A stretch of 64,000 bases of DNA. Source: Limosilactobacillus fermentum. Lineage in GTDB: Bacteria; Bacillota; Bacilli; Lactobacillales; Lactobacillaceae. The notes under the pieces were generated by a model. It did no database searches. It was given only the letters and a program-made list of their open reading frames with translations, and was not told the DNA's origin. Both the position numbers and the translations under genes were made by a program. Location of the stretch: contig NZ_CP040910.1 in assembly GCF_013394085.1 (NCBI RefSeq), forward strand, positions 1,784,767 to 1,848,766, in the 5' to 3' direction. This document shows positions 1,439-40,435 of the stretch, piece after piece. Within the stretch, counting starts at the first letter, position 1, and each line of letters opens with the position of its first letter.

Positions 1439-1553
1439 GTGCGACCCAGCCATTAGGCAGGCCGTGGGCTAAGGATAGAACACAGGTTATCGCGGTACGC
1501 GGTGTTCTGTGGTCGGACTTAGCCACTAGGTCTGCGGCTGGGGAGCACGTTAT
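1439..1553 (+). repeat. R1 palindromic element, copy a
   Basis: About 115 bp beginning GTGCGACCCAGCC and ending GGCTGGGGAGCACGTTAT, four bases after the ATPase stop. Outer arms pair; a second stem is CAGGCC with GGTCTG; the inner hairpin has CGCG arms around GTA. It shares conserved CTAAG and CTTAGCCACTAG blocks with the other R1 copies. Confidence 0.85.
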
Positions 1554-1559
1554 GAGTGA

Positions 1560-1600
1560 GTGCGACCCAGCCATTAGGCAGGCCGTGGGCTAAGCTAGGG
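1560..1600 (+). repeat. R1 left-half element
   Basis: Repeats only the left half of copy a (GTGCGACCCAGCC to GGGCTAAGCTAGGG) six bases after it, and then runs straight into the terminator at 1598. Confidence 0.8.
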
Positions 1601-1634
1601 TTGGGAGAAGAATTTCTCCTAGCCCTTTTCTTTG
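1598..1634 (+). terminator. Intrinsic terminator of the ABC operon
   Basis: Stem GGGTTGGGAGAA / TTTCTCCTAGCCC (12 pairs with G-T) followed by TTTTCTTT. Its first three bases are the last bases of the R1 half element. Confidence 0.8.
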
Positions 1635-1689
1635 TCCTCCCCTATCATTTCGGGCACAATAACTTTAAAAACGGAGGGCTGAACAAACC

Positions 1690-2025
1690 ATGCAAACCAA
1701 CTTCACGAACCGCCTCGCTCTTGCCATGCAAATTGACCCCGCCGTCCTCTGGGAGCACTTTCCAAATGGCGTAACCATTAATGATCTCCAAAGGGTCAAC
1801 GAGATACTGTATCCTGACGCCCCTGCTAACTTTCACTACTGCTTACCAGAGGATGTTGCCTACCATTTAATTGACGCTCCCGGGGGTGAATTAGAGAGAT
1901 TTTGGTTAGGAATCACAATGCTTGGTTCACTAGATGGCCCCCATTTGGTACCAATCCCGGATGTATTTCCGCCTATCACCACTTCGTTGACCACCGCAAT
2001 GATGGTTATTTTGACTAAGAACTAA
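1690..2025 (+). CDS. Hypothetical protein, possibly frameshifted at its C-terminus
   Basis: A 111-aa protein that I do not recognise. The ATG follows ACGGAGGG (1672-1679) at good spacing, so it is probably translated. The first ~75 residues look globular and acidic (VLWEHFPNGVTINDL near residue 20). The last ~20 residues (PPITTSLTTAMMVILTKN) are low in charge and unlike the rest; in the -1 frame the same DNA reads CISAYHHFVDHRNDGYFD before a stop, which looks more like protein. This suggests a recent indel near 1935-1955 or a natural variant end. Codon use is less GC-biased than in neighbours. Confidence 0.5.
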   Translation: MQTNFTNRLALAMQIDPAVLWEHFPNGVTINDLQRVNEILYPDAPANFHYCLPEDVAYHLIDAPGGELERFWLGITMLGSLDGPHLVPIPDVFPPITTSLTTAMMVILTKN

Positions 2026-2026
2026 A

Positions 2027-2072
2027 AAATAAGGGACCGAGAGGAAAGTTGTTTCCTCTCGGTCCCTTATTT
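2027..2072. terminator. Bidirectional terminator
   Basis: Long perfect stem AAATAAGGGACCGAGAGG / CCTCTCGGTCCCTTATTT with a short loop between the convergent orphan gene and amtB. A/T tracts on both sides let it work in both directions. Confidence 0.9.
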
Positions 2073-2097
2073 CATTGTTGGGTTGAAGAATAATCGA

Positions 2098-3312
2098 TTA
2101 GCGGGCCATGATTCGCTCGCCGTGTTGGGTGATGTCCAGGCCGACCGCTTCTTCCCTGGCCGAAACCCGAACCGGCATCACGAGGCGTAGGCCCTTGATG
2201 ATCAGCCAGCACGTTACCCCGGTAAAGACCATCGTGGCTAGGGTAGCAACGATTTGAACTAAGAACTGGTGCATCCCGCCGCCGTACAGGAGTCCGTTGT
2301 CGGTAACTTGGGAGTTAACCTGGCTGGTGGCAAAGAGTCCGGTGGCGATGCTTCCCCAGATCCCGGAAACCCCGTGGCAGCCAAAGGCGTCTAGGGTGTC
2401 ATCCAGGTGCAAACGTGGCTTAGCGTAGGTTACGAAGAGGTAGGAACAAATGGACGCCCCCAGGCCGATCATGACCGCCCCGCTGATGGTGACGTAGCCG
2501 GCCGCCGGCGTGATCGCCACCAACCCGCAGACGGTCCCGGTGCAGGTACCGACTAGGGAAACCTTCCCGGTAAAGCTGACTTCCAGTAGTTGCCAAGCGA
2601 CCATGGCTGCCGCGGTGGCCACCGTCGTCGTTAACATGGCTTGAACGGCCACGTTGTCAATCGCTAGGGCCGAACCGGCGTTAAAGCCGTACCAACCGAG
2701 CCACAGGATGGAAGTCCCGATCAAAACCAAGCCCAAGTTAGCCGGTTGGTCGTTGTGACGTTGCAAACGCGGCCCGACCATCCAGGAGAGGACCAAGGCC
2801 GTCACCCCCGCGTTGATGTGGACGACGGTCCCGCCGGCAAAGTCGAGCGTCCCTAGCTTACCGAGGATGCCGCCACCCCAAACCATGTGGACTAGCGGGT
2901 AATAAACCAAAAGCGACCAGAAGATGACGAAGGCGACGATGAACCACGGCCGGGCCCGACCAACCACTGCCCCGATGAAGAGGGCCGGGGTAATGATGGC
3001 AAACATCATTTGAAACATCGAGTACAGGCCGGTTGGAATCTTGGTGGCCGTCAGGGCAAAGATGTTAACGTGGTGAAACATCGCCCAGTGTAAATTCCCG
3101 AACAATCCCCAAACGTTACCGGAAAACGACAGGGAGTAGCCAACGATGATCCACATAATCACGGCGACTCCGCAAATGAAGTACACTGACATAAAAGTGT
3201 TGACCACGTTCTTCTTTTCGCTTAACCCTCCATAGAATAAGGCCAAGCCCGGTGTCATGAAAAAGACCAGGATGCTTGCGACCATCACGAACAATACGTT
3301 TGCTGCGTTCAT
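2098..3312 (-). CDS. amtB: Ammonium transporter
   Basis: Amt/MEP/Rh family channel (404 aa) importing ammonium across the cytoplasmic membrane. About eleven hydrophobic helices are visible, with family blocks LFYGGLSEKKNVVNTFM near the N-terminus, a VHINAGVTALVLSWMVG block in the middle and DTLDAFGCHGVSGIWG near the C-terminus; the two pore histidines are in those last two blocks. It starts close to its first helix, with only a short periplasmic lead. It stands alone: no PII gene (glnK) is next to it, unlike the amtB-glnK pairing common elsewhere, so how transport is gated is not visible here. Confidence 0.93.
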   Translation of the reverse strand: MNAANVLFVMVASILVFFMTPGLALFYGGLSEKKNVVNTFMSVYFICGVAVIMWIIVGYSLSFSGNVWGLFGNLHWAMFHHVNIFALTATKIPTGLYSMFQMMFAIITPALFIGAVVGRARPWFIVAFVIFWSLLVYYPLVHMVWGGGILGKLGTLDFAGGTVVHINAGVTALVLSWMVGPRLQRHNDQPANLGLVLIGTSILWLGWYGFNAGSALAIDNVAVQAMLTTTVATAAAMVAWQLLEVSFTGKVSLVGTCTGTVCGLVAITPAAGYVTISGAVMIGLGASICSYLFVTYAKPRLHLDDTLDAFGCHGVSGIWGSIATGLFATSQVNSQVTDNGLLYGGGMHQFLVQIVATLATMVFTGVTCWLIIKGLRLVMPVRVSAREEAVGLDITQHGERIMAR

Positions 3313-3548
3313 CTTTCTTCAACCCCTTCCGAATTAATGTTGATAAGATTAGACCATTCTAATCACCTTCGCAAGGGGCGCCGCTTGGTTTGTGGATATC
3401 TTTTGTTTGGTGGGGTTCAAACGGGGCTTTTTTAAGTTGGTAGCGGTTCCAACTTCTTATTTTTTCGACTAGACCAATTTTGCACTTGCACGCTCCTTCG
3501 CAATTCTCCTACAATGGATATAATATTTTTTAAGAAGGGAAACCCACC
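3313..3548. other. Divergent intergenic region amtB / MATE
   Basis: 236 bases with start signals for both flanking genes. A-T stretches near 3455-3525 (TATAATATT at 3518-3528) resemble a -10 region for the MATE gene. No riboswitch or operator palindrome was recognised. Confidence 0.4.
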
Positions 3549-4868
3549 ATGGAGCAACTATTTGAACACACTTCGATCCGCCGCGTCTACTTTACGCTGG
3601 CGATGCCGGTCGTTTTATCGATGGCCGTCACCCTAATTTACAACATGGTCGACACCTTCTTCGTCGCCCAAACCCAAAATCCCGCCCTGGTCGCCGGGGT
3701 TTCGCAGGGGGCCCCAGTCTTCACCCTTCTAATTGCCATTGGTGACATCTTCGGACTGGGGGGCTCGTCCGTGATCTCGCGCCTCTTTGGGGAAAAACGC
3801 GATCAAGAGGGGCGTAACGTTTCCGGCTACGCCTTTTACGCCGCCTTTTTCTGGGGCATCATCGTTTCCGCCCTAATGTTAATCTTCAAGGACCAGGCCC
3901 TACACTTGCTGGGGGCTAGCAAGGCGACTTGGAAGTACGCCGATGAATACTACACCGTGATGGCCTGGGGGGCGGCCTTTGTCGTCTTTGGCCTGGCCCC
4001 GAATAACATCTTGCGCACCGAGGGGTTAGCTCTAGAATCAATGAAGGCCTCGATGACCGGAACGATTATCAACATCGTCTTAAACCCGATCTTCATCTTC
4101 ACCCTCGGCCTGGGGGCGGCCGGGTCGGCGCTGGCCACCGTCACCTCCAACGTAATTGGTGACCTTTTAATGATTTACTACCTGCGCACCAAGTCCCAAA
4201 AGCTGACCACCTCGATCAAGGAAACCAAGGTCTCCTGGGACCTCAAACGCCAAATCTACGCGATCGGAATCCCCGCTAGCATCACCAACGTCATGGCCAC
4301 CCTAGCGATGGCGCTGACCAACCGCTACCTAATTGACTACGGCGCCGATTCCGTCGCCGCCATGGGGATCGCCCTTAAGGTATCGATGATCATCAACATG
4401 ATCTTCATTGGCTTCGCCTTCGGGGCCCAACCACTGATTGGTTACGTTTACGGCGCCAAGGACCGCCGCCGCTTCCAGAGTGCCCTGCGCTTCGACCTGT
4501 TAGTGGTCTGTGGTTTTGCCCTGGTCATGACGGCGATCATGTTCTTCTTAGCCCCGATCATTATCACCTGGTTCATGAAGGACCCGACGATCGTCAAGGA
4601 GGGGGCCATCATGGTTCGCTGGCTGGTTATCTCTTCAACTCTAGCCGGCTTCACCCTGGTCTTTACAACCGTCTTCCAGTCAATGGGCAAGGCCCTGCCC
4701 GCCCTGCTCTTGTCCCTGGCTCGCCAAGGGATCATCTTCACCGTGGCCATCGTCATTCTCGCCCACTTCTTCGGCTACCACGGCATCATCGCCGCCCAGG
4801 CCGTGGCCGACCTTTTGACCGCCATCTTAGCAATCGCCCTCTTTGCGCGGTATAAGCCGAAATTCTAG
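3549..4868 (+). CDS. MATE family efflux transporter
   Basis: Multidrug and toxin extrusion antiporter (439 aa), 12 predicted helices in two MatE domains (about residues 15-175 and 235-400). The N-terminal block PVVLSMAVTLIYNMVDTFFV and the GLGGSSVISRLFGE loop are typical of the NorM/DinF-type subgroup. It would export cationic or aromatic compounds using Na+ or H+ gradients; the actual substrate cannot be inferred. ATG at 3549 follows AAGAAGGGA. Monocistronic, with its own terminator. Confidence 0.9.
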   Translation: MEQLFEHTSIRRVYFTLAMPVVLSMAVTLIYNMVDTFFVAQTQNPALVAGVSQGAPVFTLLIAIGDIFGLGGSSVISRLFGEKRDQEGRNVSGYAFYAAFFWGIIVSALMLIFKDQALHLLGASKATWKYADEYYTVMAWGAAFVVFGLAPNNILRTEGLALESMKASMTGTIINIVLNPIFIFTLGLGAAGSALATVTSNVIGDLLMIYYLRTKSQKLTTSIKETKVSWDLKRQIYAIGIPASITNVMATLAMALTNRYLIDYGADSVAAMGIALKVSMIINMIFIGFAFGAQPLIGYVYGAKDRRRFQSALRFDLLVVCGFALVMTAIMFFLAPIIITWFMKDPTIVKEGAIMVRWLVISSTLAGFTLVFTTVFQSMGKALPALLLSLARQGIIFTVAIVILAHFFGYHGIIAAQAVADLLTAILAIALFARYKPKF

Positions 4869-4908
4869 TTAAAAGAAACGGGACCCAACCTCCGCTGCAG
4901 GTAAATTT

Positions 4909-4955
4909 AAAAGCCCCGCCGCGTTCGTTAAACGAACGTGACGGGGCTTATTTTG
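4909..4955 (+). terminator. Terminator of the MATE gene
   Basis: AAGCCCC(GCC)GCGTTCG / CGAACG(TGA)CGGGGCTT around a TTAA loop, followed by ATTTTGG. Confidence 0.8.
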
Positions 4956-4982
4956 GATGCTTATTTTTTTACGGTTACTCAG

Positions 4983-5044
4983 ATAACGTGCTCACCAACC
5001 TTCCCCCTAGCTTAGCCCACGGCCTGCCAATGGTTGGTCCGCAC
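4983..5044 (-). repeat. R1 element with inner hairpin deleted
   Basis: Read leftward it starts GTGCGGACCAACC, keeps CAGGCCGTGGGCTAAG, and jumps to TTGGTGAGCACGTTAT. Both outer ends are present but the central hairpin and right stem are missing, giving 62 instead of 115 bp. It abuts R2 at 5051. Confidence 0.75.
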
Positions 5045-5050
5045 TTTAAA

Positions 5051-5150
5051 CGCAGTACACCAATGGACTCCATTGGTTCTGGCGACCCCGCTGAAGTCCT
5101 ATTGGTGTTTGCGGGGGTGCGACTACGAAATCAGAGATTTCTGTCGCACT
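5051..5150 (+). repeat. R2 element with R3 hairpin, behind scrK
   Basis: CGCAGTACACCAATGGACTC pairs with GTCCTATTGGTGT; GCGGGGGTGCGA follows, then the R3 hairpin GTGCGAC..GAAATC-AGA-GATTTC..GTCGCAC. R3 ends two bases from the scrK stop codon, so it would lie at the very start of the scrK 3' UTR. No T-run follows, so it is not a standard terminator. Confidence 0.8.
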
Positions 5151-5152
5151 CC

Positions 5153-6034: not shown

Positions 6035-6047
6035 GGTAATTCTCCTT

Positions 6048-7400: not shown

Positions 7401-7448
7401 CTTGATGTCACTCCTTAGGTAAATCTCAATCGCGCGTTTTCAGTTTTA

Positions 7449-10565: not shown

Positions 10566-10680
10566 GTGCTAAACAACCTCCTCGGCAGGTCGTATGGCTA
10601 AGCTAGGACGAACGGTTGGTGCGAAACGCACCGTTCTTCGTCCGTACTTAGACACTAGACCTGCGGTTGGTTAGCACGAT
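10566..10680 (+). repeat. R1 palindromic element, copy b
   Basis: Outer arms GTGCTAAACAACC and GGTTGGTTAGCAC pair, although both differ from copy a; the second stem is GCAGGTC with GACCTGC. The inner hairpin GGTGCG-AAA-CGCACC is longer than in copy a. The paired changes are compensatory. Confidence 0.85.
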
Positions 10681-10702
10681 ATCTGTGTAAACTTAGGGAA
10701 TC

Positions 10703-13806: not shown

Positions 13807-13898
13807 TTTTCGGAAAATAACGATGATTAAGTTTCCATAAGATTGTATCGTTCGCTTTTAAGTGGTAAGATACTGGTATCAAATTTAGAAAACGTAAG

Positions 13899-13967
13899 TG
13901 CCTATATAATCGCCGTAATATGGTCGGCAAGTCTCTACCTTCAGCCGCAAACTGAAGACTATAAGCA
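13899..13967 (+). promoter_or_regulatory. Guanine-class purine riboswitch
   Basis: P1 is TGCCTATA / TATAAGCA with one C-A mismatch; conserved TATAATCG and ATATGG loop, GCCG/CGGC P2, J2/3 AAGTCTCTACC (T to C at the flipped-out position), and P3 TTCAG / CTGAA. The specificity base is C (GACTAT), as in xpt, so guanine or hypoxanthine rather than adenine. It precedes a terminator and the permease gene. Confidence 0.93.
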
Positions 13968-13973
13968 AAAGTG

Positions 13974-14003
13974 AGTGGGCTTTTGTGGGTCCACTTTTTT
14001 TAT
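13974..14003 (+). terminator. Riboswitch expression-platform terminator
   Basis: AGTGGGC..GGTCCACT followed by TTTTTTT, seven bases after the aptamer. Ligand binding would be expected to favour this hairpin and shut off the permease. Confidence 0.85.
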
Positions 14004-16403: not shown

Positions 16404-16518
16404 AAAACGTGGTCAATAACCGCAAGCCTAGTGGCTAAGTACGGGCAAAGAACGGTACTGGCGCACCAACCATTTGCCCTAGCTTAGTCATAAGGCTCGT
16501 CGAGAAGGCTAGTCGCAC
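16404..16518 (-). repeat. R1 palindromic element, copy c
   Basis: Read leftward: GTGCGACTAGCC ... GGTTATTGACCACG, second stem CGAGCC with GGCTTG, inner stem GGGCAAATGGTTGGTGC / GCACCGTTCTTTGCCC-like. Preceded by CGAATATTAGACAGAAAACG, also found next to the copy at 37002. Confidence 0.85.
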
Positions 16519-16524: not shown

Positions 16525-16637
16525 ATAACGTGCTCCCAACCACAGGCCTAGTGGCTAAGTCTGGCCACAGAACACCGCTGACGCGCTAACCTGTGCCCGA
16601 ACCTTACCAACGGCCTGTCGAGGAGGTTGGGTCGCAC
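16525..16637 (-). repeat. R1 palindromic element, copy d
   Basis: Read leftward from just after the phosphatase stop: GTGCGACCCAACC ... GGTTGGGAGCACGTTAT; second stem ACAGGCC / GGCCTGT; inner hairpin CACAGGTTAGCGCG / CAGCGGTGTTCTGTG. Tandem with copy c, same orientation. Confidence 0.85.
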
Positions 16638-16645: not shown

Positions 16646-17299
16646 TTAATGATTATAAAACTCAACGCTGACCCGGTCGCCATCCATCACCAACTTGGAT
16701 AGGCTCCCGTTTGCCGGCCGTTCGGTAATGTCATACTTCCCCTCGCCGAAACGTTCAATCAAGGACAGGCAGGTGTTGCCGTGGGAAACCAACAAAACGT
16801 TGGCCCCGTCCGGCAGCCCCGCGTCCCGAATGATCGCTAAGCCTTCGTTCATCCGTTTCCAGTACTCGGTGCTGTTTTCGGCGTCGTGGAAGGGATCGGC
16901 GTCTTTTAACCAGTCCTTGGCGGTGTCGATGTTGTACTTGGTGACGATGTCTTTGAAGGTCTTTAACCCGTGGGGAGCCCCGGCGTTATACCAAGCTTGG
17001 TCCATATAGGTCCCTTCGTAAGAGCCGTAGAACTCCTCGCGGAAATACGGTGCCGTCGTCGGCTCCTTGACCGAATCGGCCTTATTTTCATCGAGGATTG
17101 TTTGGGCGGTTTCAACGGCGCGGGTAAGGTCGGAACAAAAGGCGGCGTCAAAGTGGACGTCCTTTAAGCGTTGTCCCGCCTTTTCGGCGTCTTGGTAACC
17201 CTGGTCAGTCAAGGGCGAGTTACTCCAGCCCTGCAGCTTGTTATAAATGTTGTAGTAGGTTTGCCCGTGGCGAACGAGGTAAATATTGATCTTGGTCAT
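16646..17299 (-). CDS. Histidine phosphatase family protein (phosphoglycerate mutase-like)
   Basis: Cytoplasmic phosphatase or mutase (217 aa) of the 2H/RHG superfamily. The catalytic RHGQT motif is at residues 9-13, the second histidine is in LLVSHGNTCLSL near 180, and GSYEGTYMDQ supplies the acid region. The frame extends upstream, but ATG 17299 is chosen since GGAGGG ends 6 bases before it, while ATG 17305 directly abuts the binding site. Its length and the FREEFYGSYEGT block match broad-specificity phosphatases of lactobacilli rather than glycolytic GpmA, so the substrate is unknown. Confidence 0.88.
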   Translation of the reverse strand: MTKINIYLVRHGQTYYNIYNKLQGWSNSPLTDQGYQDAEKAGQRLKDVHFDAAFCSDLTRAVETAQTILDENKADSVKEPTTAPYFREEFYGSYEGTYMDQAWYNAGAPHGLKTFKDIVTKYNIDTAKDWLKDADPFHDAENSTEYWKRMNEGLAIIRDAGLPDGANVLLVSHGNTCLSLIERFGEGKYDITERPANGSLSKLVMDGDRVSVEFYNH

Positions 17300-17522
17300 C
17301 GTCATCCCTCCATTGTTAGTGCTTTCACGCCTTATTGTACCCCATTTTCGGGTTGAATGTAGCGGCGCCCCGCTTTGAATTCCGTTAAGTTTCTTCAACG
17401 ATTTTTCAAATCCCCCAACTCCCTGCTCCCCCTATGTTAAAATGTTGATCGTTATCGGCTAATTTACTTAGCCCCATCGCTTTAATAACGAAATTATTTA
17501 TGTTTGCGAGGATCACTTTACG

Positions 17523-19652: not shown

Positions 19653-19655
19653 GGA

Positions 19656-19760
19656 GCACGACAGAAATCTCTGATTTCGTCGTCGTGCCCCCGCAAGCGC
19701 CAATAGGATTCCAGCAGACTCGGCTTTGTCGAGCCAATGGGGTCCATTGGCGTACTGCGT
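19656..19760 (-). repeat. R2 element with R3 hairpin, behind ltaS-like gene
   Basis: R3 (GCACGAC..GAAATC-TCT-GATTTC..GTCGTGC) begins four bases after the stop codon, then GCCCCCGCAAGCGCCAATAG pairs with CCATTGGCGTACTGCG across a hairpin. Arms read GCGCC/GGCG here against ACACC/GGTG at 5051: compensated changes. Confidence 0.8.
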
Positions 19761-19765: not shown

Positions 19766-19879
19766 GTGCGACTAGCCTTCTCGACGAGCCGCATGACTAA
19801 GCTAGGGCAAATGGTTGGTGCGCCAGCACCGTTCTTTGCCCGTACTTAGGCACTAGGCTCGTGGCTAGGAGCACGTTAT
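19766..19879 (+). repeat. R1 palindromic element, copy e
   Basis: GTGCGACTAGCC ... GGCTAGGAGCACGTTAT; second stem CGAGCC / GGCTCG; inner stem GGGCAAATGG..GGTGC / GCACC..TTTGCCC. Linked to the R2 block by six bases, in the same relative order as at 4983-5150. Confidence 0.85.
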
Positions 19880-23979: not shown

Positions 23980-24059
23980 AATTATCCCTCCTTTGTTACC
24001 TTAAGGATATCCGGTACCACCCCCATTTAAATTGATCGGAATCAAGAGTACCAAAAGAA

Positions 24060-24100
24060 GTGCGGAACAACCGTAAAGCAGGCTGTGGACTAAGCTAGGG
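24060..24100 (+). repeat. R1 left-half element
   Basis: GTGCGGAACAACC..CAGGCTGTGGACTAAGCTAGGG, followed at once by the hairpin at 24108. Same truncation point as the half elements at 1560 and 26304. Confidence 0.75.
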
Positions 24101-26376: not shown

Positions 26377-26668
26377 TTTTGTCCTCCACACCACTCTCCG
26401 TTGTCTTACGATGTTACCCGTTTTCGTCACGCCACGTTCCGTGGTCTTAGTCTTTTGGTAACTTTTCCACCGCTTTTCCACTTTTCCCCAAGGGGTTGTG
26501 GATAATTACGGACTTATCCCCAAGATATGGGTAGCCCTTTTTCCAACCTAGTCAGAGCACTCCCGTTTTTTAACAAGGCGTGGCGCCACGAACCGTCCTA
26601 AGCAGGCGATCGGTAAGAATTTTCTTGCCCCCACTACCAAAAACAGGTATGATGGTCTTAAATCATAT
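26377..26668. other. Gene-free stretch with DnaA-box-like cluster
   Basis: About 290 bases without coding signs. TTTTCCACC, TTTTCCACT, TGTGGATAA (exact DnaA consensus in reverse, 26497-26505) and TTATCCCCA (26514-26522) fall within about 60 bases. The promoter of the thiamine transporter must also be here; TATGAT at 26648-26653 is a candidate -10. Confidence 0.35.
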
Positions 26669-26743
26669 CTTGTCTGGGGTGCCATTGGCTGATAAATACC
26701 CATTGAACCTGCTTTGGTTAGGACCAACGAAGGGAACGACAGG
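26669..26743 (+). promoter_or_regulatory. TPP riboswitch (THI element)
   Basis: P1 CTTGTC / GACAGG encloses GGGGTGCC, GGCTGATAAATACCC, TTGAACCTG and GACCAACGAAGGGAA, the conserved THI-box blocks in order. It lies ahead of ykoEDC genes and fits thiamine-pyrophosphate repression of their expression. Confidence 0.93.
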
Positions 26744-26758
26744 TAATCACCGTCAAAA

Positions 26759-29939: not shown

Positions 29940-31901
29940 TTGTCGACGATTTTTGGGATCTTAATGCTCCTAATTGCCGTGGTGGCCGCCAACGTCTTAC
30001 ACCTCTTGTGGCCCCGGCTGCCACTGGCCATCTACCGAATTTTAGCCGGGATTGTCTTGGCCCTGATTCCCGTTCAATCCCACACCTTTGAACTAGATCC
30101 CAAAACCTTCCTCTTGTTAATCATTGCCCCCCTACTCTTTAACGACGGGCAGGGAACCTCCCCACGCGAACTATCGCGTAACCTCAAACAAACGCTATCA
30201 ATGGCGGTCACCTTAGTTGTCTTCTCGGTACTGGTGGTAGGGACTGGCTTGCACTTAGCGATGGCGGAGACCTTCTCCTTACCGCTAGCCTTCATGTTGG
30301 GGGCAATCATCACCCCCACCGATGCGGTCGCCGTCAAGTCACTATCGGCAACGGTGGCGATGCCCAGAAACGTCAACCGGACCTTAGAGCACGAAGCCCT
30401 TTTTAACGATGCGTCCGGCCTGGTCTTGTTCGGCCTGGCCACCTCCACCCTGTCATCGGGGCACTTTTCCTTAGGGCAGGGGATCTTCACCTTCCTCTAC
30501 GTCTTCTTAGGCGGGATCATCTTTGGGGCGCTGATCGGTTTCCTAGCCATCCAATTGCGGACAACCTTGATGCGGACCCACGTTGATATCGGGCGAATTG
30601 TGATCCCGATCAACCTGATGACTCCAATCGTCACCTACTGGTTTGCCGAGGAACTCCACTTATCCGGGATCCTGGCCGTGGTGGCCGCTGGGATCGTCCA
30701 CGCCCTCTTGTACACCCGCTTGCGGTTGACCTCGGCTAAGGTCCAAATTGCCTCCACCACGATCTGGTCGATGGTCGCTGACATTTTAAACGGGCTGGTC
30801 TTCGTCTTCTTGGGGGTCACCTTGCCCAGCGTGCTCGGTAACACTTCCCTAGCGCGCCTAGCCAAGATTTTCGTGGTCGCCATTGCCCTCTACTTAGTAA
30901 TGGGGGCGCTACGCTACTTCTGGAGCCAACTCAAGTTCGTTGACCTCCACTCTAAGAAAAAGCAGCGCCAAAAGGACAGTTTCCTACTCTCCCTTGGCGG
31001 AATCCACGGGACGATCACTTTAGCGATGGCCTTTTCAATCCCCCACACCATCAACGGCCAACCCCTAGCGGCCCGCAACACGATAATTTTGATCGCCGCC
31101 CTCGTGATCATCATCAGCATCACGGTCGGGGCGCTCGCCTTTCCACGCATCCTACCGGCCAAAAAGAAGAGTTACCGGCAAAGCGAGTTCCAATATCAAC
31201 TTAACAAGACCGTCCACTACGCCATCGACCAACTCGCCAATGAACCGGGCGGGGCGGCCGAAAAAGCGGTGGTCTTAAACGTGTTATCCAGCCAAAGCAC
31301 CCTAACCTTTAAGACCAACCAGGCCCGCTTCCAAAGGATTTATGACCGGGCCCACGAGGTCGAACTCGCCGCGATCACCAAGCTCAGTGAAGAAGGCAAG
31401 GTGACCGACAAGATCGCCCGCCTGTACGTCGGGTTGATCTCACGGGAACTGGCTAGCCACGGGGACGGGCTGATCAACTTCTGTCGGGGGATTTACTACC
31501 GGATCAAGTGGCACCGGGTCCGCCACCGGGTTTCGCACATAACCCCGGCCCAAACCGCCTACTTCAAGCGCGAGGTCGCCCCGATCCAGCAACAGGTCGC
31601 CCGCGTCTTTGACCTGATCTACCCCCAAGTCATCGCCTACCTGAATGACATCCAGACCCCCGCCAACACCCACGAGGTGACGATGGTCCGGCGCTCCTAT
31701 TTCAACCGCCAGCGTTTCTTCCGCCAGCACGAGCACCTCGACGGCGAGCAAATCGACATCCTCTTCGTGGCGGCCTTCCAATTTGAACATTCCTACATCC
31801 AGCAGGCGGCCGCCAAAGGTACGATTTCGGTTGAACTGGCCAACGCCCTTAACGAACACATCTCCACCGACCAGTTGGTGTACATTCAATCGACTAACTA
31901 G
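29940..31901 (+). CDS. CPA1 family Na+/H+ antiporter (NhaP-like)
   Basis: Membrane antiporter (653 aa) exchanging Na+ for H+. About 12 helices span residues 1-410, with the ion-site FNDASGLVLF (ND pair, residue ~156), preceded by IITPTDAVAVKSL, and the re-entrant GGIHGTITLAMAF near 357. A cytoplasmic helical tail of about 230 residues follows. Start is TTG at 29940 with GAAAGGATG ahead. Ion specificity is not fixed by sequence; it may support acid and salt tolerance. Stop is followed within 4 bases by R1. Confidence 0.88.
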   Translation: MSTIFGILMLLIAVVAANVLHLLWPRLPLAIYRILAGIVLALIPVQSHTFELDPKTFLLLIIAPLLFNDGQGTSPRELSRNLKQTLSMAVTLVVFSVLVVGTGLHLAMAETFSLPLAFMLGAIITPTDAVAVKSLSATVAMPRNVNRTLEHEALFNDASGLVLFGLATSTLSSGHFSLGQGIFTFLYVFLGGIIFGALIGFLAIQLRTTLMRTHVDIGRIVIPINLMTPIVTYWFAEELHLSGILAVVAAGIVHALLYTRLRLTSAKVQIASTTIWSMVADILNGLVFVFLGVTLPSVLGNTSLARLAKIFVVAIALYLVMGALRYFWSQLKFVDLHSKKKQRQKDSFLLSLGGIHGTITLAMAFSIPHTINGQPLAARNTIILIAALVIIISITVGALAFPRILPAKKKSYRQSEFQYQLNKTVHYAIDQLANEPGGAAEKAVVLNVLSSQSTLTFKTNQARFQRIYDRAHEVELAAITKLSEEGKVTDKIARLYVGLISRELASHGDGLINFCRGIYYRIKWHRVRHRVSHITPAQTAYFKREVAPIQQQVARVFDLIYPQVIAYLNDIQTPANTHEVTMVRRSYFNRQRFFRQHEHLDGEQIDILFVAAFQFEHSYIQQAAAKGTISVELANALNEHISTDQLVYIQSTN

Positions 31902-31904: not shown

Positions 31905-32019
31905 GTGCGACCCAACCTATCAAACAGGCCGTGGGCTAGGTATAGGTCACAGGTTAGCGCGCCAGCGGTGTTCTGTGGCCGGACTTAGCCACTAGGCCTG
32001 TGGTTGGGGAGCACGTTAT
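31905..32019 (+). repeat. R1 palindromic element, copy h
   Basis: GTGCGACCCAACC ... GGTTGGGGAGCACGTTAT; second stem ACAGGCC / GGCCTGT; inner stem CACAGG..GCGC / GCGG..TTCTGTG. Begins 3 bases after the antiporter stop. A left-end fragment GTGCGACCCAACC repeats at 32025-32040. Confidence 0.85.
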
Positions 32020-32150: not shown

Positions 32151-32755
32151 AGGGACTACTGACGCTTGCGAGGGTGCGATTACTACCCAACTACTCTTTT
32201 TTAAAGGCAACACGGCAGTACACCAATGGACTCTAGCAGTTCGTTTCACGAACCTAGCTAGAGTCCTATTGGTGCTTGCGGAGGTACGATCCACCTTATC
32301 ACCATTTTTCCTGAATTCTACATACGCAGTACGTCAGTGGCTTCCACTCGTTCGACTAGCGAACTTCCTAGAACCCTACTGACGCTTGCGAGGGTGCGAT
32401 TATTACCCAACTACTCTTTTTTAAAGGCAACACGGCAGTACACCAATGGACTCTAGCAGTTCGTTTCACGAACCTAGCTAGAGTCCTATTGGTGCTTGCG
32501 GAGGCACGATCCACCTTATCACCATTTTTCCTGAATTCTACATACGCAGTACGTCAGTGGCTTCCACTCGTTCGACTAGCGAACTTCCTAGAACCCTACT
32601 GACGCTTGCGAGGGTGCGATTACTACCCAACTACTCTTTTTTAAAGGCAACACGGCAGTACACCAATGGACTCTAGCAGTTCGTTTCACGAACCTAGCTA
32701 GAGTCCTATTGGTGCTTGCGGAGGCACGACTAAGAAATCAGAGATTTCAGTCGTG
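32151..32755. repeat. 220-bp tandem array of two alternating R2-like hairpins, ending in R3
   Basis: Units start at 32161, 32381 and 32601 (each begins GACGCTTGCGAGGGTGCGAT), so the period is 220 bp with about 2.6 units and only single-base differences. Each unit has hairpin A (GTACACCAATGGACTC / GAGTCCTATTGGTGC) and hairpin B (GTACGTCAGTGG / CCCTACTGACGC). A and B differ by compensated base changes. The last A ends in the R3 hairpin GCACGAC..GTCGTGC three bases from the lplA stop. Confidence 0.88.
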
Positions 32756-32758
32756 CTC

Positions 32759-33772
32759 TCATTCCTGCCGGACCAGCAGGTCGACAATTTCGTCCTTGGT
32801 GATCTTACCAAAGACCCGGGCCACCAAGCCCTCGTCAATCTTTTGGTTGATGGCTTCCCGGTCGTAGCGAACCCCCAACAAACGCTGTTCAAAATCGCGC
32901 ACGTCTTCTTGACCTAAGAAGTCACCATAGACCTTGAGGTAGGCAATCTTACCGCCCTCAATTTGAAAACGGAAGTCGACCGTCCCCTGGTCAAAGTGTT
33001 GGCGGTGTTGGATGGCCGCCTTGGGCGACTTGCCATATACGAAGTCCCAGTTGCTAAAGATCTCCGCGTTGATCTTGGCCACGGCGGCCTTGTCTTCATC
33101 ACTCAGCACGTATTCCTTGGCATCGGCTAGGTCACTGACACCGAGGATCTTCTTGGCTAGCGTGTCGCGGAATTCCTCGATCGTCAGGTGCTGGTAGTCC
33201 GGCGTGAAGTGGGGCTTTAGGTTAGTTACCCGGCTGTGGACCGACTTAATTCCCTTGGATTCAATCTTGTCCTTAGGCACATTGAGGGCGTGGCCAATCA
33301 CGTCGAGGTCGACGTCGTACATCAGGGTGCCATGGGAGAACATCCGCCCGTGGGCAATCCGCATGGCGTTGCCGGAGAACTTCTTACCTTCGATCTGTAA
33401 GTCGTTGCGCCCGGATAGTTCAGCCTTGGTCGCCCCCATTTCGTGCAGGACTTCGATCACCGGGTCGGTGAACTTAGCGAAGTTCCCGTTAGAGTGGCCA
33501 TCATCTTTAGTGATAAAGCTAAAGGAAACGTTGCCCAGGTCGTCAAAGACCGCCCCACCCCCGGAGGTCCGGCGGGTAACGATGATGTTATGTTCACGCA
33601 CGTAATCAAGGTTGACCTCTTCATAGGCGTCCTGATTGCGGCCGAGAATGATGCAAGGCGAATTGATGTAAAAGTAGAGGATCGGCTCATCGAGTTGGAC
33701 GTGCTCCATCAGGTAGGTTTCTAGCGCCAGGTTATAGCGAATGTCCCTGGTATCAGTGACTAAGTACTTCAT
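32759..33772 (-). CDS. lplA: Lipoate-protein ligase A
   Basis: Enzyme (337 aa) attaching lipoate to the E2/GcvH lysine of dehydrogenase complexes, via lipoyl-AMP. The active region is RRTSGGGAVFDDLGNVSFSF near residue 68, the adenylate/lysine motif is GKKFSGNAM near 130, and a C-terminal accessory domain of about 90 residues is present (from about 245). ATG at 33772 follows AGAGGAGG. It probably follows the OsmC gene in one transcript (11 bases apart). R3 hairpin directly follows its stop. Confidence 0.9.
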   Translation of the reverse strand: MKYLVTDTRDIRYNLALETYLMEHVQLDEPILYFYINSPCIILGRNQDAYEEVNLDYVREHNIIVTRRTSGGGAVFDDLGNVSFSFITKDDGHSNGNFAKFTDPVIEVLHEMGATKAELSGRNDLQIEGKKFSGNAMRIAHGRMFSHGTLMYDVDLDVIGHALNVPKDKIESKGIKSVHSRVTNLKPHFTPDYQHLTIEEFRDTLAKKILGVSDLADAKEYVLSDEDKAAVAKINAEIFSNWDFVYGKSPKAAIQHRQHFDQGTVDFRFQIEGGKIAYLKVYGDFLGQEDVRDFEQRLLGVRYDREAINQKIDEGLVARVFGKITKDEIVDLLVRQE

Positions 33773-34286: not shown

Positions 34287-34401
34287 GTACGCACCAACCA
34301 ATTGGCAGGCCGTGGGCCAAGGATAGGGCACAGGTTAGCGCGGTACGCGGTGTTCTGTGTCCAGACTTAGCCACTAGGTCTGCGGTTGGGGAGCACGTTA
34401 T
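34287..34401 (+). repeat. R1 palindromic element, copy i
   Basis: GTACGCACCAACC ... GGTTGGGGAGCACGTTAT; second stem CAGGCC / GGTCTG; inner hairpin CGCGGTACGCG. It is nearly identical in its inner part to copy a at 1439. Confidence 0.85.
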
Positions 34402-34408
34402 CTGTACA

Positions 34409-35542: not shown

Positions 35543-35671
35543 CGTTTTCTCCTCAATTTTCAATCGTTTCATTTTACCACGCTGTGTGGGTAATCGTCAT
35601 TTGCTTTTCTAAGACCACGGGGCGTGGCGTGAATGGTATAATAAAACTGAATTGAGGAAGGAAGTGTCGAT

Positions 35672-36097
35672 ATGTTTCCAGAACGACTCCGGGCCTTGCG
35701 CGCCGGACAAAAAATTACCCTCCAAGAACTAGCCGACGCCCTGAGCAAGAACTTAGCCCCGGGTGAAAAGCCTAACTCCCCCTCCCAAATCGGGAACTGG
35801 GAGCGGGGGATCCGGACCCCGTCTTACGTTGAGGTCCGCAAGCTAGCCGAGTACTTTAACGTCAGCCTCGACTACTTGACCGGGCGCTCCGACCACGACG
35901 AAACCGATTTGGCCAAGCTCTTTTTTGATACCAACAAGGCCCTGACCTTCAACCAGCGGACCCTAACCAGCGAGGACCGCTACGAAATCTTCCAACTGAT
36001 TGACGGCTACTTTAAGGGCCAGGCCAACCGTCGCGAAACCGCCACTTTCTATGCCCAACAAGAAGAACTGAACTTAAACTTTAAGGACGAATCATGA
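35672..36097 (+). CDS. XRE family transcriptional regulator
   Basis: DNA-binding protein (141 aa). Residues 5-62 form a HTH_3 domain (LQELADALSKNLA then NSPSQIGNWERGIRTPSYVEVRKLAEYF) with an unusual 11-residue insertion between the two core helices; the rest (to 141) is helical and unassigned. AGGAAGGAAG precedes the ATG at 35672. Its stop overlaps the start of the methyltransferase-like gene by 4 bases, so the pair is coupled. Confidence 0.85.
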   Translation: MFPERLRALRAGQKITLQELADALSKNLAPGEKPNSPSQIGNWERGIRTPSYVEVRKLAEYFNVSLDYLTGRSDHDETDLAKLFFDTNKALTFNQRTLTSEDRYEIFQLIDGYFKGQANRRETATFYAQQEELNLNFKDES

Positions 36098-36945: not shown

Positions 36946-36949
36946 AGAA

Positions 36950-36965
36950 GTGCGATCCAACTCCT
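36950..36965 (+). repeat. R1 left-end fragment
   Basis: GTGCGATCCAACTCC, four bases after the methyltransferase stop. Confidence 0.55.
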
Positions 36966-37001
36966 AGTAAGCATCTTACTATCTTCACGAATGTTGGACA
37001 G

Positions 37002-37118
37002 AAAACGTGGAAAATAACCGCAGGTCTAGTGCCTAAGTACGGCCGAAGAACGGTGCGTGCCGCACCAACCGTTCGTCCTAGCTTAGTCATACGACCTGCT
37101 TCGGAGGTTATTTCCCAC
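37002..37118 (-). repeat. R1 palindromic element, copy j
   Basis: Read leftward: GTGGGAAATAACC ... GGTTATTTTCCACG. These outer arms pair over 12 positions although both arms differ from the other copies (GTGC/CCC forms), a clear compensatory change. Second stem GCAGGTC / GACCTGC. Preceded by CGAATGTTGGACAGAAAACG like copy c. Confidence 0.85.
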
Positions 37119-37124
37119 TCAGCA

Positions 37125-37165
37125 ATATAAAAACGCCACCCGCTTCTCCGTGGAGAAGTAGGTGG
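37125..37165. terminator. Bidirectional terminator
   Basis: AAAAACGCCACC(CG)CTTCTCC / GGAGAAG(TA)GGTGGCGTTTT. Serves the methyltransferase transcript and the candidate RNA from the right. Confidence 0.85.
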
Positions 37166-37370
37166 CGTTTTCGTTTGGCAAACGTGGCTTGGCGGCCACG
37201 TGGATGTGTATTGATACTATCTCAGGTCGCACCGGTCGTCCACTACCAGCTGGACCAGGCACCCTACAATCCGGTAGGTTACGTGCCCCACTCGAGAATC
37301 ATTTCCGTTCGCACGGGGGAACCAAATAAGGGTCGGTTCCCTGACCTCTCGACTCATCGCAGTCTTTACC
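37166..37370 (-). ncRNA. Candidate structured small RNA (~200 nt)
   Basis: Minus strand. TTGCCG - 17 bases - TATGGT (37398-37370) is a good promoter, directly behind the stop of the 37399 gene; transcription would end at 37125-37165. The ~200 nt between has several perfect stems: GGGAACC..GGTTCCC, CGTGC..GCACG, ACCTAC..GTAGGGT, GTCCA..TGGAC and ACGTGGC-CGCCAA-GCCACGT. No open frame of note. It has no tmRNA, SRP or RNase P signature I recognise. A Lactobacillales Lacto-usp/6S-like RNA is one possibility, given the uspA gene 1 kb away. Confidence 0.45.
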
Positions 37371-37398
37371 ATACCACGATTTTAAGCTTCCGGCAAGG

Positions 37399-37875
37399 CT
37401 AATCGTCCTCTTCTTGGGCGGCCCGGTTTTGGGTCAAGGCGCTGAGCTGGTTAACCAGCCACTCACCTAGCGGGGTCACAAAACTGTTTGGCTGGTCGCT
37501 AACGGCGTCGGCGTCCCCCAGTTCATCGATCCGCAGGCCGGATTGGTTAAGCTGTTCGCCCTCAACGATCATGTAAACCTTCACCGGGTAAGGCTGGTCC
37601 CGTTCTAAAAGCTTGGGGTCTAAGCGCTGTGCTTCGGCCATCGGCACGTTGATCAGGTTCATTTCTAGGCGCACGCTGACTGGGTCACCAACCGGTACTT
37701 TGACCTCCCAGTTGTACTGGCTTAAGTGTCCGGTCGCGATTTGCTCGGCCATATCCATTAAACCGGCCTTTAGGGTGGTTGCTTGCTGGACAACGGCGGC
37801 GCTCACTTGCCCCGTGGTGACGTGTACCCGTTCACTCTCTAATTCCTCCAGGTATTGTTCGTAGGTCATTTCCAT
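37399..37875 (-). CDS. Hypothetical cytoplasmic protein
   Basis: Acidic protein (158 aa) of unknown function, with no signal or helix. The first 40 residues look coiled (EQYLEELESERVHV), the middle shows alternating beta strands (NWEVKVPVGDPVSVRLEMNL), and it ends AAQEEDD. In pattern it is a SecB-like or small cytosolic beta protein, but no motif supports a name. It lies 7 bases downstream of a small membrane protein gene, probably cotranscribed. Confidence 0.55.
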   Translation of the reverse strand: MEMTYEQYLEELESERVHVTTGQVSAAVVQQATTLKAGLMDMAEQIATGHLSQYNWEVKVPVGDPVSVRLEMNLINVPMAEAQRLDPKLLERDQPYPVKVYMIVEGEQLNQSGLRIDELGDADAVSDQPNSFVTPLGEWLVNQLSALTQNRAAQEEDD

Positions 37876-37881
37876 TGCTTG

Positions 37882-38280
37882 TTACTTCCCTTCTAAGCGC
37901 GAGTAGGTGTAGTTGAGCCGCTGGCGAATTCCTTGGATAATCCCGGCCACCGCCACGACGATTCCGCAGATGGCCACCAGTTGGATCAACAGGCCGGACA
38001 TGGCGGAGCGGTCGTGCACTTGCAGGAGCCCCCCGAGGTTAATAATCCCCAAGTAGAGGTTAACCAGAATCGTGACGTAACTAGACAGGCGGACCCGCAA
38101 GGCCACGAAGATTACCACTAGGACGGCTAGGGCCACCAAAAAGCCCACCCGGCCTAAGACGGCCGCTGAATTCCAGGCTTGGCCAACCTGGGCGTACATA
38201 CAAAACTCAATCACCGCCGCCAGAACCATGGCAATAATGGTGTAGGCGATGATCTTATTCGCGTTCGTTGTTTTTTTCAT
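37882..38280 (-). CDS. Four-helix membrane protein, unknown function
   Basis: Membrane protein (132 aa) with four clear hydrophobic segments at about 10-30, 42-60, 66-86 and 92-112 and a short basic C-terminal tail (RQRLNYTYSRLEGK). I recognise no family. It likely forms one transcript with the cytoplasmic protein at 37399. Confidence 0.6.
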   Translation of the reverse strand: MKKTTNANKIIAYTIIAMVLAAVIEFCMYAQVGQAWNSAAVLGRVGFLVALAVLVVIFVALRVRLSSYVTILVNLYLGIINLGGLLQVHDRSAMSGLLIQLVAICGIVVAVAGIIQGIRQRLNYTYSRLEGK

Positions 38281-38396
38281 TTTGTTCCCCTTTTGCTAAT
38301 CTTCCCCTATTCTAACTGATCAACCTGTAAAGCTCAATTTTCCTCCCGCCCCGGGTAGCGTATAATATAGGTGAAAGCATGAATGGAGGAATTGTT

Positions 38397-38849
38397 ATGA
38401 CAAACGGAACTTACCAACGCATCTTAGTCCCCATCGACGGCTCCCGGGCGACCCCGGTCGTCATGGAAAAGGCGATTGCCGCCGCCAAAAAGCACCAGGC
38501 CCACTTAGACATCCTAAACGTCGCCCAGGTTAACCAGCTGACCGACGGCTACGCGATTGCCAGTTCGCTGAGCACCAGCCAAACCTTCGACCTGGTTAAA
38601 ACGACCCAGGAGCGGCTGGGCGACTTAAAGAAGCACGCCGAAGAAAGCGGGGTTAAATCGGTCGCTATCCACATCCGCTTTGGCAACCCCAAGCAGGTGA
38701 TCGCCCGCGACTTTATCGCCGACCACCACAACGATTTAATCGTGATTGGTACCACCGGCCTGTCGATGGTCGAACGCCTGATTGTCGGCTCGGTCACTAG
38801 TTACGTGGTCCGTAACGCCGCTTGCGACGTGGAGGTCGTACGGGTTTAG
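38397..38849 (+). CDS. Universal stress protein UspA family
   Basis: Cytoplasmic Usp (150 aa) that binds ATP. N-terminal ILVPIDGSRATPVVMEKAI and C-terminal GTTGLSMVERLIVGSVTSYVV carry the Gly-2x-Gly-9x-Gly(S/T) ATP-binding pattern, with VVRNAACDVEVVRV at the end. ATG 38397 is set by GGAGG (38383-38387). Typical role is stress survival; a direct target is not known. Monocistronic. Confidence 0.92.
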   Translation: MTNGTYQRILVPIDGSRATPVVMEKAIAAAKKHQAHLDILNVAQVNQLTDGYAIASSLSTSQTFDLVKTTQERLGDLKKHAEESGVKSVAIHIRFGNPKQVIARDFIADHHNDLIVIGTTGLSMVERLIVGSVTSYVVRNAACDVEVVRV

Positions 38850-38875
38850 GTTTTGAATGAAAGGACGGCGCCCCT

Positions 38876-39226
38876 ATGGTTTCGCATCAACTGACAATTT
38901 CCCTTGACGAAGATGCCTTTCGGGCCCTTGAAAAGAGGGCGCAAAGCGAACGACGCCCACTAGAAGAGGTGGCGGCTTCCATGCTGACCACCGCTAGCAA
39001 GGTCCCGGCGACCGGGATGACCAGTTTAGAGGGGCGCTTCGTGGTTGGCCAAATCGTCACCCCATCTGCTTTCGACCCCACCGAGCCACTCGTCTTGGTG
39101 CGGGGGATTTACTACCGCTACCGGATTGCGGGCAAGCCACAACCCGGCCAACGTTTCGTGGTCACCGCAGTCAAAGATAACGTCTTAACCCTCACCCCCA
39201 CCAACGAAAGCGAGGATGATGCCTGA
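38876..39226 (+). CDS. Small RHH-like/OB-like protein coupled to the SPFH gene
   Basis: Protein of 116 aa. Residues 1-40 (LTISLDEDAFRALEKRAQSERRPLEEVAASML) resemble a ribbon-helix-helix fold; residues 52-110 read as a small all-beta domain (GRFVVGQIV..LVRGIYYRYRIAG..GQRFVVTAVKDNVLTLTP) that recalls the NfeD C-terminal OB domain. NfeD proteins partner with SPFH/stomatin proteins, and the stop overlaps the start of such a gene (TGATG), so a matching role is likely. Its own domain assignment is by eye. Confidence 0.55.
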   Translation: MVSHQLTISLDEDAFRALEKRAQSERRPLEEVAASMLTTASKVPATGMTSLEGRFVVGQIVTPSAFDPTEPLVLVRGIYYRYRIAGKPQPGQRFVVTAVKDNVLTLTPTNESEDDA

Positions 39227-40224
39227 TGTTTTTCTCCCTTGTAATCGTATTTATCATCTTCTTTCTCCTTTACGGCTACTTCGCCGCTAAAAGCGAGGCC
39301 AAGAAAAAACCGGATAACCCAACGGCGCCAGCCAAGCAAAACACTAACCGCCCCGTCGCCACCGGAGTTTCCTACCGCAGTGCCAAACATACAGGAGGTT
39401 TTAGCATGTTCGGAATTGCCATCGTCAAGCAAAACACCCAGGGGCTGATTGAAACCTTAGGGAAGTACTCCCGGACTGTCGAAGCCGGTTTACACCTGTA
39501 CATTCCCCTGGTTCAACACGTCCGCCACGTTAGCTTGGCCATGCAGCCCATCTTATTGCAAAAGTACAGCGTCATCACCAGCGATAACGCCGACGTACAG
39601 GCCTCGGTTTCGTTAAACTACCACGTCACCGACGCCGTTAAGTACAGCTACGAAAACACCAACTCCGAGGAGTCGATGATCCAACTGGTCCGCGGCCACC
39701 TGCGCGACATCATCGGCCGGCTGGAATTAAACCAGGCCCTCGGTTCGACTTCCAACATCAACGCCCAGCTGGCCGCTGCGATCGGCGATTTAACCGGCCT
39801 GTACGGAATTAACGTTGACCGGGTCAACATTGATGAACTGACCCCGTCACCGGAGATCCAAAAGGCGATGGACAAGCAGCTGACCGCCGACCGGGAACGG
39901 GTAGCCACGATCGCCCGGGCCGAAGGGGAAGCCCGCAACATCAAGCTGACCACCGACGCTAAAAACGCCGCCCTGGTCGAAACCGCGCAGGCCCAAGCCA
40001 CGGCGACGCGGACCAAGGCCGACGCCGAAGCCTACCGGATTGAAAAGATTCGCCAGGCCCTGAGTAGCGTTGACGACAAGTACTTCCGCGACCAAAGCCT
40101 ACTGGCCTTCTCTAAGCTGGCGGAGGGCAACAACAATTTAGTGGTGATGGATAAAGACGACATCACCGAACTAGGTAAGGTCCCGGTCGCTAAGGAATTG
40201 TGGGACGCCGGCAAAAACAAATAA
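39226..40224 (+). CDS. SPFH domain (stomatin/prohibitin-like) membrane protein
   Basis: Membrane microdomain scaffold (332 aa): N-terminal helix MFFSLVIVFIIFFLLYGYFAA (about 1-20), basic linker, SPFH domain (about 65-225; QNTQGLIETLGKYSRTVEAG and LHLYIPLVQ), then a coiled-coil rich in Ala/Glu/Arg (AEGEARNIKLTTDAK..TKADAEAYR) to about 300. A second start is strongly suggested: ATG at 39406 (residue 61) has ACAGGAGG 7 bases before it, better than the site at 39226; it would make a protein without the membrane helix. Both forms may exist. Confidence 0.88.
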   Translation: MFFSLVIVFIIFFLLYGYFAAKSEAKKKPDNPTAPAKQNTNRPVATGVSYRSAKHTGGFSMFGIAIVKQNTQGLIETLGKYSRTVEAGLHLYIPLVQHVRHVSLAMQPILLQKYSVITSDNADVQASVSLNYHVTDAVKYSYENTNSEESMIQLVRGHLRDIIGRLELNQALGSTSNINAQLAAAIGDLTGLYGINVDRVNIDELTPSPEIQKAMDKQLTADRERVATIARAEGEARNIKLTTDAKNAALVETAQAQATATRTKADAEAYRIEKIRQALSSVDDKYFRDQSLLAFSKLAEGNNNLVVMDKDDITELGKVPVAKELWDAGKNK

Positions 40225-40247
40225 AGCAAGAAATTACTCCTAGAGAT

Positions 40248-40292
40248 AAAACAGCCACCCAATTCGCCAAGTTACGAATTGGGTGGCTGTTT
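40248..40292. terminator. Terminator after the SPFH gene
   Basis: AAACAGCCACCCAATTCG / CGAATTGGGTGGCTGTTT, loop CCAAGTTA. Confidence 0.9.
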
Positions 40293-40298
40293 CATTTA

Positions 40299-40317
40299 GA
40301 GGAGGTTGGGTCGCACT
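40299..40317 (-). repeat. R1 end fragment
   Basis: AGGAGGTTGGGTCGCAC, i.e. an R1 left end in reverse, next to copy k. Confidence 0.6.
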
Positions 40318-40320
40318 TCC

Positions 40321-40435
40321 ATAACGTGCTCCCCACCACGGGGCTAGTGTCTAAGCTGGCCGAAGAACGATGCGTACCGCATCAACCGTTCGTCCCAGCT
40401 TAGCCATACGCCCCGTCGAGGAGGTTGGGTCGCAC
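40321..40435 (-). repeat. R1 palindromic element, copy k (last in window)
   Basis: Read leftward from the antiporter stop: GTGCGACCCAACC ... GGTGGGGAGCACGTTAT; second stem CGGGGC / GCCCCG, a full change of both arms against other copies; inner stem GGACGAACGG..GATGCG / CGCATC..TTCTTCGG. Confidence 0.85.

Follow-up and report, generated by a model that had tools for sequence, protein, structure and literature searches.

The closest described counterparts of the repeat reported here are the REP and BIME sequences of Escherichia coli and other Proteobacteria, which go with the RAYT transposase (TnpA-REP). By the published definition, RAYT-associated REPs are 20-50 nt long, have a GTAG leader and possess a cognate transposase (PMC8266576). 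We analysed a window of 64,000 nucleotides (G000:C1:1784767-1848766) from the 1,887,974-base single-contig genome of Limosilactobacillus fermentum, hereafter the home genome, in which an original prediction had singled out nine copies of a palindromic repeat, R1, between window positions 1439 and 40435. That span refers to this window only, as the family extends through the whole genome and the genus. The observation was right, but understated: beyond it, these hairpins are oriented in sense, lie in the interval from stop codon to terminator, occur in tandem, form subfamilies particular to each species and are exchanged as modules between related species.

Like REPs, the hairpins are high-copy intergenic palindromes with species-specific subfamilies and a short tetranucleotide at the 5' foot, and part of the copies lie just behind a stop codon; intergenic copies are numerous (at least 150 units), and some stand no more than 15 nt from a stop. 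Unlike REPs with their 20-50 nt and GTAG, the hairpin has a unit of ~116 nt and a GTGA, GGAA, GAGA or GTAA leader. No cognate Y1 (HUH) transposase was found for it in 50 genomes, with flanks judged in the home genome. It also keeps one orientation to the gene, is coupled to terminators and is found in a genus of the Bacillota. Because size, leader and transposase all differ, we propose that the hairpin may work like a REP, but do not class it as one.

ERIC or RU-1 (127 bp) and MITE-like repeats such as bcr1, RUP and BOX share with the hairpin the size range, the imperfect palindrome and the intergenic position. By published descriptions, the hairpin appears to be set apart from them by its head-to-tail arrays and its sense polarity before terminators. 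Directly downstream of the hairpin, these genomes have intrinsic terminators of the AGAGGCTGGGAGAAAA type, which are partly exchanged with it, but the hairpin is 116 nt long, lacks an adjoining T-run and has a different conserved internal architecture. The family is apparently undescribed. Rfam 15 gave no match at any hairpin of the window and none overlapping the hairpins of four relatives' loci at E up to 1, and a literature search, conducted largely outside subscription journals, did not find it; within these sources, the earlier statement that no described family fits holds.

Fold of the hairpin

The unit is an irregular hairpin with a 13-bp outer stem, a 6-nt bulge in the 5' arm, a 7-bp stem, a 3x3 loop, another 7-bp stem, another 3x3 loop and a long terminal stem. 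It is preceded by the short purine-rich leader and followed by a conserved tail, which reads CTGTSTAACATTCG in many of the copies from L. fermentum and downstream of which a terminator, commonly of the AGAGGCTGGGAGAAAA type, is often found. Folded singly, the copies at 31905, 10566, 37002 and 19766 had energies between -55 and -72 kcal/mol and z scores between -5.6 and -7.4, and 0/200 shuffles were as good. The commonest outer arm, GTGCGACCCAACC/GGTTGGGGAGCAC, keeps a GA/GA internal mismatch where other subtypes mostly have standard pairs (columns 5-6).

Simultaneous changes on both arms had been taken to imply selection on a fold beyond simple copying. Covariation supports this, both in two alignments and when measured against a tree-based null. 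Alignment A3 comprised 22 hand-picked units from the home genome and seven others, aligned with MAFFT by sequence only; folded one by one, these units give essentially one architecture. Standard pairs occupied 97.9% of the 898 paired cells, and double-sided changes were present in 27 of 41 pairs; 0/500 shuffles came up to this. Sliding the partners by 1-3 columns reduced pairing to 38-43% (maximum 43.4%). For the home genome, an alignment of 116 distinct rows, which was fitted to the model, had 92.1% standard pairs. The covariation test proposed with the original prediction was run with our own script after the R-scape idea, using a null that keeps the tree and the substitutions and scatters the latter over independent sites (89 rows of an alignment that followed the structure; 20 simulated alignments). 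Eleven of 41 pairs were significant (E<0.05, corrected for 41 pairs), with all four helices represented, and nine of these 11 scored higher than any non-structural pair; the highest of the latter had an E of 1.3 over all pairs. We conclude that the conserved fold is real.

A folded sense strand tolerates G·U pairs, whereas folding of the antisense strand appears as A·C. The paired cells of A3 held 85 G·U and 3 A·C. In the home genome the numbers were 371 and 50, or 147 and 50 without the columns where the wobble is the rule; two wobbles of the terminal stem are near-fixed there, at columns 56/83 (111/116) and 58/81 (113/116). Because G·U is far above A·C in paired cells, one folded sense strand, either RNA or single-stranded DNA, is favoured over a cruciform. 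Of the two forms originally proposed, RNA or cruciform, the evidence thus leans away from the second.

Placement, range and turnover

In the home genome, at least 150 units were found with the covariance model R1 at E<=0.001. This number is a lower bound, because only 150 of 923 candidates were scored, all of which passed. By a 60-nt rule the units fall into 120 arrays (95 single, 20 double and 5 triple); the true number is 119, because 1267199 and 1267615 are really one array. Placement was surveyed with uncurated open reading frames (ORFs) of >=70 codons within 400 nt. The most credible upstream ORF ran in sense in 92 arrays and in antisense in 21, with none in the remaining 7, and a single array of the 120 sits between divergent ORFs. 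The longest upstream sense ORF stopped 0-12 nt before the hairpin in 63/120 arrays, with a mode of 3 nt; if any such ORF is counted, as well as stops inside the hairpin's first 14 nt, the number rises to 68/120. Of 86, 58 were within 12 nt, compared with 9.6 expected under uniform intergenic placement. Among the 80 arrays with a convergent downstream ORF, the 3' end of the hairpin came within 12 nt of that stop only once (6.7 expected), and this sole array (828562) is the weakest covariance-model match. In strain DR9, which has an independent annotation, 14 of 30 arrays lay 0-12 nt past the stop of an annotated coding sequence. The hairpins stand behind chromosomal genes such as leuS, and no clear strand bias by chromosome half was seen.

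For 57/120 arrays a terminator-like hairpin lay within 160 nt downstream, compared with 14 on the 5' side that were read outward. The AGAGGCTGGGA type of terminator was enriched behind hairpins (16/40 compared with 23/177, p 3e-4, against a background that includes reverse readings of the same terminators). That the hairpins are mostly located between stop codon and terminator, in sense, is a solid observation.

The covariance-model search suggested earlier was run on the genome and its relatives and found the family genome-wide and genus-wide. In model R1 the CTAAG stem is out of register between two subtypes, and R1 was replaced by model R2, which adds further places in the home genome, e.g. 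1122843 and 1232484. Across the genus, with 74 candidates scored in each genome, R2 had matches in 32/50 genomes (home genome included) and in 28/41 good assemblies; R1 had found 24. Across the bacterial family, with 24 candidates scored in each genome, R1 matched in 6/151 genomes: three, the home genome among them, belong to the genus, and the other three, from two different genera, gave matches that were weak and unverified. A degenerate pattern retrieved 21 stretches from a species-genome collection, in L. ingluviei, kribbianus, balticus, reuteri and oris and in one uncultured Lactobacillus. Some hairpins of the home genome (near 111382, 587717, 748812, 1518476 and 1704179) stand between inverted repeats like GACAGGACAAAT..TTTGCGCAA / TTGCGCAAA..ATTTGTCCTGTC, which look as if the hairpins were nested in another palindromic element.

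A phage origin was rejected, as one copy searched against 50,697 phage records gave no match. The hairpin matched 35 plasmid records, including a 760-kb replicon of DR9. On two smaller plasmids, which belong to Latilactobacillus sakei and Secundilactobacillus paracollinoides, it lies 3 nt past asnB (L032 6001-6115; L033 6001-6126), which suggests that gene and hairpin moved together on plasmids. Since this holds for both plasmids examined of the 35 matching records, the plasmid copies were attributed to hitch-hiking and plasmid spread was set aside.

We compared the home genome with DR9 at 22 arrays that had both flanks in the compared DNA. The flanks were ~98-100% identical at 21; the 22nd array (1650777) was not counted because one flank matched only at 68%. 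All 21 comparable arrays were filled at the same place in DR9, and at three sites the unit numbers differed by ~120 bp (home genome 2, 3 and 1 units, DR9 3, 2 and 2). In the reverse direction, six of nine unmapped DR9 places lay in DNA aligning without a break. Another place has a unit and a 33-nt partial in DR9 and the partial only in the home genome, and a further one has two units in DR9 and one in the home genome, with a ~150-nt deletion that also removed DNA behind the unit. The last of the nine was without an ortholog in the DNA compared. Most of these differences are what slippage between direct repeats yields.

Turnover between species was observed at two sites, a small sample, compared over seven genomes each. 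At the first site, G017 carries the module and five relatives other intergenic DNA, with flanks 95-98% identical; a sixth relative, G015, has an apparent truncated reverse copy (by eye) that gives no covariance-model match. At the second site, the module stands one way round in G053 and the opposite way, together with its terminator, in G055 and G054, and only a different terminator is present in G015, G014 and G020; G017 (unalignable) and G056 (partial match) were left out of this comparison. The covariance model confirmed the four filled sites and, with E up to 1 allowed, gave no match in the remaining loci. At both sites intergenic DNA was replaced, and by eye there was no clear target-site duplication.

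Copies and neighbours in the window

All nine predicted copies were recovered at their places, the positions being lower ends for those on the - strand. Each of the nine contains the block CTTAG.CACTAG once, the window has it nowhere else, and the variants quoted for the second stem and the outer arms are present in the sequence. Model R1, which was partly built from these copies, finds all nine in sense with 88-130 bits. At E up to 1 it has ten further matches in the window: in nine, these palindromes are hit again in antisense (15-35 bits), and the tenth is a fragment.

Unit 1 (1439..1553, +; 127.7 bits) begins 4 nt past the stop of ORF 664-1434 (+) and is followed by a partial second unit at 1557..1600 (+), which is represented by direct repeat D7 and inverted repeat I22 and included in the array listing. 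A unit fragment is located at 4983..5044 (-; 29.3 bits) and a partial 5' unit, again part of direct repeat D7, at 24057..24094 (+). Unit 2 (10566..10682, +; 104.9 bits, 123.2 bits with R2) is of the GTGCTAA subtype and continues into a CTGTGTAA tail and then a terminator-like hairpin (by eye). Units 4 and 3 form a two-unit array on the - strand, in which unit 4 (16525..16637; 120.9 bits) comes first, 8 nt past the stop of ORF 16646-17398 (-), and unit 3 (16404..16518; 87.9 bits) second, followed by a CTGTCTAATATTCG tail and a AGAGGCTGG-type terminator. Unit 5 (19766..19879, +; 105.4 bits), with a CGAGCC/GGCTCG second stem, lies downstream of a different, stop-adjacent hairpin family. Unit 6 (31905..32019, +; 129.9 bits) starts 3 nt past the stop of ORF 29940-31901 (+), and unit 7 is at 34287..34401 (+; 122.1 bits). 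Unit 8 (37002..37118, -; 105 bits, 120.9 bits with R2) has a CTGTCC tail and represents the GTGGGAAATAACC subtype, the form found in other species. Unit 9 (40321..40435, -; 96.7 bits) stands 3 nt past the stop of ORF 40439-41800 (-).

The window also has a second hairpin family (GGAGTGCGACAGAAATCTCTGATTTC...), at 5052-5152 (-), 19653-19758 (+) and 32655-32758 (-). In three of six blast places in the home-genome DNA searched, this family starts at the stop of an ORF on its own strand. Just 3' of unit 6, three head-to-tail copies of a 220-nt unit (32156-32815; 99% and 73% to the first) have stretches in common with this second family. The Rfam small RNA Ref68 (Lacto-3) lies at 37233-37361 (-), 114 nt upstream of unit 8 on the same strand. 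Riboswitches above gathering score are a purine riboswitch at 13882-13981 (+) and a TPP riboswitch at 26665-26754 (+).

Possible role and routes of spread

The best explanation, to which we assign a probability of about 0.5, is a genus-wide, REP-like, terminator-coupled hairpin of the 3' untranslated region (3' UTR), formerly or slowly mobile, that would act on mRNA stability or termination. Its directly supported parts are the fold with its covariation, the sense polarity, the position, the turnover between related species at two sites, and the gain and loss of units in arrays; the mechanism we infer. The hairpin would be transcribed together with the upstream gene and, by analogy with stop-proximal REPs of E. 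coli, may shield the 3' end of the mRNA from 3'-5' exonucleases. Hairpins within about 15 nt of the stop may also, by the same analogy, slow terminating ribosomes. In a study of E. coli, REPs lower translation only at <16 nt from the stop, and an earlier study is given as placing 260 of 496 REPs in this way (PMC12306157). The hairpin would have spread as a non-autonomous element, and arrays may grow and shrink through slippage between direct repeats.

Several points weigh against this explanation. A newer count in the same source puts only 446 of 4,072 E. coli REPs (11%) within 15 nt (PMC12306157). In 53 genes of our survey that lack a hairpin, the median gap between stop and terminator is 19 nt, and uniform placement in that gap would bring ~61% of hairpins within 12 nt, compared with 58/86 (67%) seen. 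Lack of room thus explains most of the stop adjacency, and stop-codon targeting as such is weakened. The excess of G·U in the home genome lies in cells and not in pair types (37 G·U compared with 31 A·C, p 0.54). A single-stranded DNA hairpin required by a transposase would equally yield covariation and strand polarity. Moreover, species carry different subfamilies, and L. fermentum and more distant species have few sites in common (home genome searched in part), the few candidate orthologous sites being L120, L123, L143 and L147, on the convergent gene, and L149, at 44% identity. Among the 74 candidates scored in each, 18/50 genomes of the genus show no hairpin. As subfamilies and sites differ and these genomes show none, the hairpin has no essential role at given genes.

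The strongest rival, which we regard as possible but clearly less probable, is a purely selfish non-autonomous element of the MITE or REP kind, whose hairpin must be recognised by a transposase, perhaps a single-strand HUH enzyme, the slot between stop and terminator being merely tolerated. The species-specific, nearly uniform subfamilies, the scarcity of sites common to different species, the empty and filled sites among close species and the REP-like 4-nt leader next to the hairpin all agree with it, as do 15 Y1 copies in the home genome, of which one stands at a distance of 201 bp from an array. However, two of these 15 have an array within 1.5 kb, where 2.9 would be expected. Of the 50 genomes, 31 have Y1 transposases, 22/32 with the hairpin and 9/18 without; 10/32 hairpin-positive genomes gave no PF01797 match at E<=0.001, where drafts may miss genes, and hairpin-rich genomes such as G045, G019, G050 and G051 are among those without a Y1 match. 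The lack of a target-site duplication by eye at the two compared sites also speaks against a selfish element, as does the comparison with DR9, in which 21/21 home arrays are filled and the reverse look revealed one DR9 site with only a partial unit in the home genome. A Y1 transposase as driver was rejected, there being no clear association over the 50 genomes or by proximity in the home genome, but it may have acted in the past or in trans.

We also examined neighbouring proteins. The 869 ORFs (>=90 codons) within 1.5 kb of 160 loci were grouped, and families at >=3 loci were considered (top 25). The most recurrent was an ABC ATPase (by eye) at 11 loci. One transposase-like family (IS30-like by eye) was listed, at 3 loci in 2 genomes (2 home, 1 G051), and the remaining recurrent families examined were ordinary genes. 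A common neighbouring protein as driver was rejected, with the top family at 11/160 loci and the IS30-like family at 3. The original remark that no transposase is linked is borne out if it is taken to mean a regular link.

Less likely than a selfish element is a mobile gene-end cassette, in which hairpin, tail and terminator would form an RNA module that is inserted or swapped in sense behind stops, replaces native terminators and so rewrites the 3' UTRs of a large number of genes, differently from species to species; it would have no DNA transposase of its own. Slightly more doubtful still is a processed or protein-bound RNA, with RNase III-type excision or one RNA-binding protein giving rise to a post-transcriptional regulon or to 3'-UTR small RNAs. 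The internal loops, the bulge and the wobble cluster, which are conserved beyond mere pairing, and the tandem arrays would suit this idea, but it has no known binding partner or transcript, and the gene sets differ between species (home genome searched in part). A DNA element, that is a cruciform or a nucleoid or supercoiling site, is improbable: the palindromes are long, and the density of arrays is highest between 0.1 and 0.3 Mb and beyond 1.6 Mb, up to the record end, i.e. around the record start, which is presumed to be near the origin, but the strand-specific wobbles and the sense polarity of placement are unexpected for a double-strand function, and on these grounds the cruciform was rejected as the main explanation. 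That the hairpin itself is an intrinsic terminator, as a strong hairpin at gene ends might suggest, was rejected as very improbable, since nearly all listed copies have no T-run directly behind the stem (CGTTAT, then CTG.. or CTT..) and separate terminator-like hairpins follow 57/120 arrays.

If the hairpin acts as RNA, about a hundred genes in a group of bacteria that live in food and the gut and are in wide use (L. fermentum and L. reuteri with their kin) would have a common structured 3' UTR that is new to Rfam and to the literature searched, and related species would differ in the genes that bear it. Such genes would provide natural matched pairs with and without the hairpin for the study of termination, ribosome rescue and mRNA decay in a Gram-positive organism. 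How a hairpin of fixed polarity could spread without a visible transposase is a further question posed by the family.

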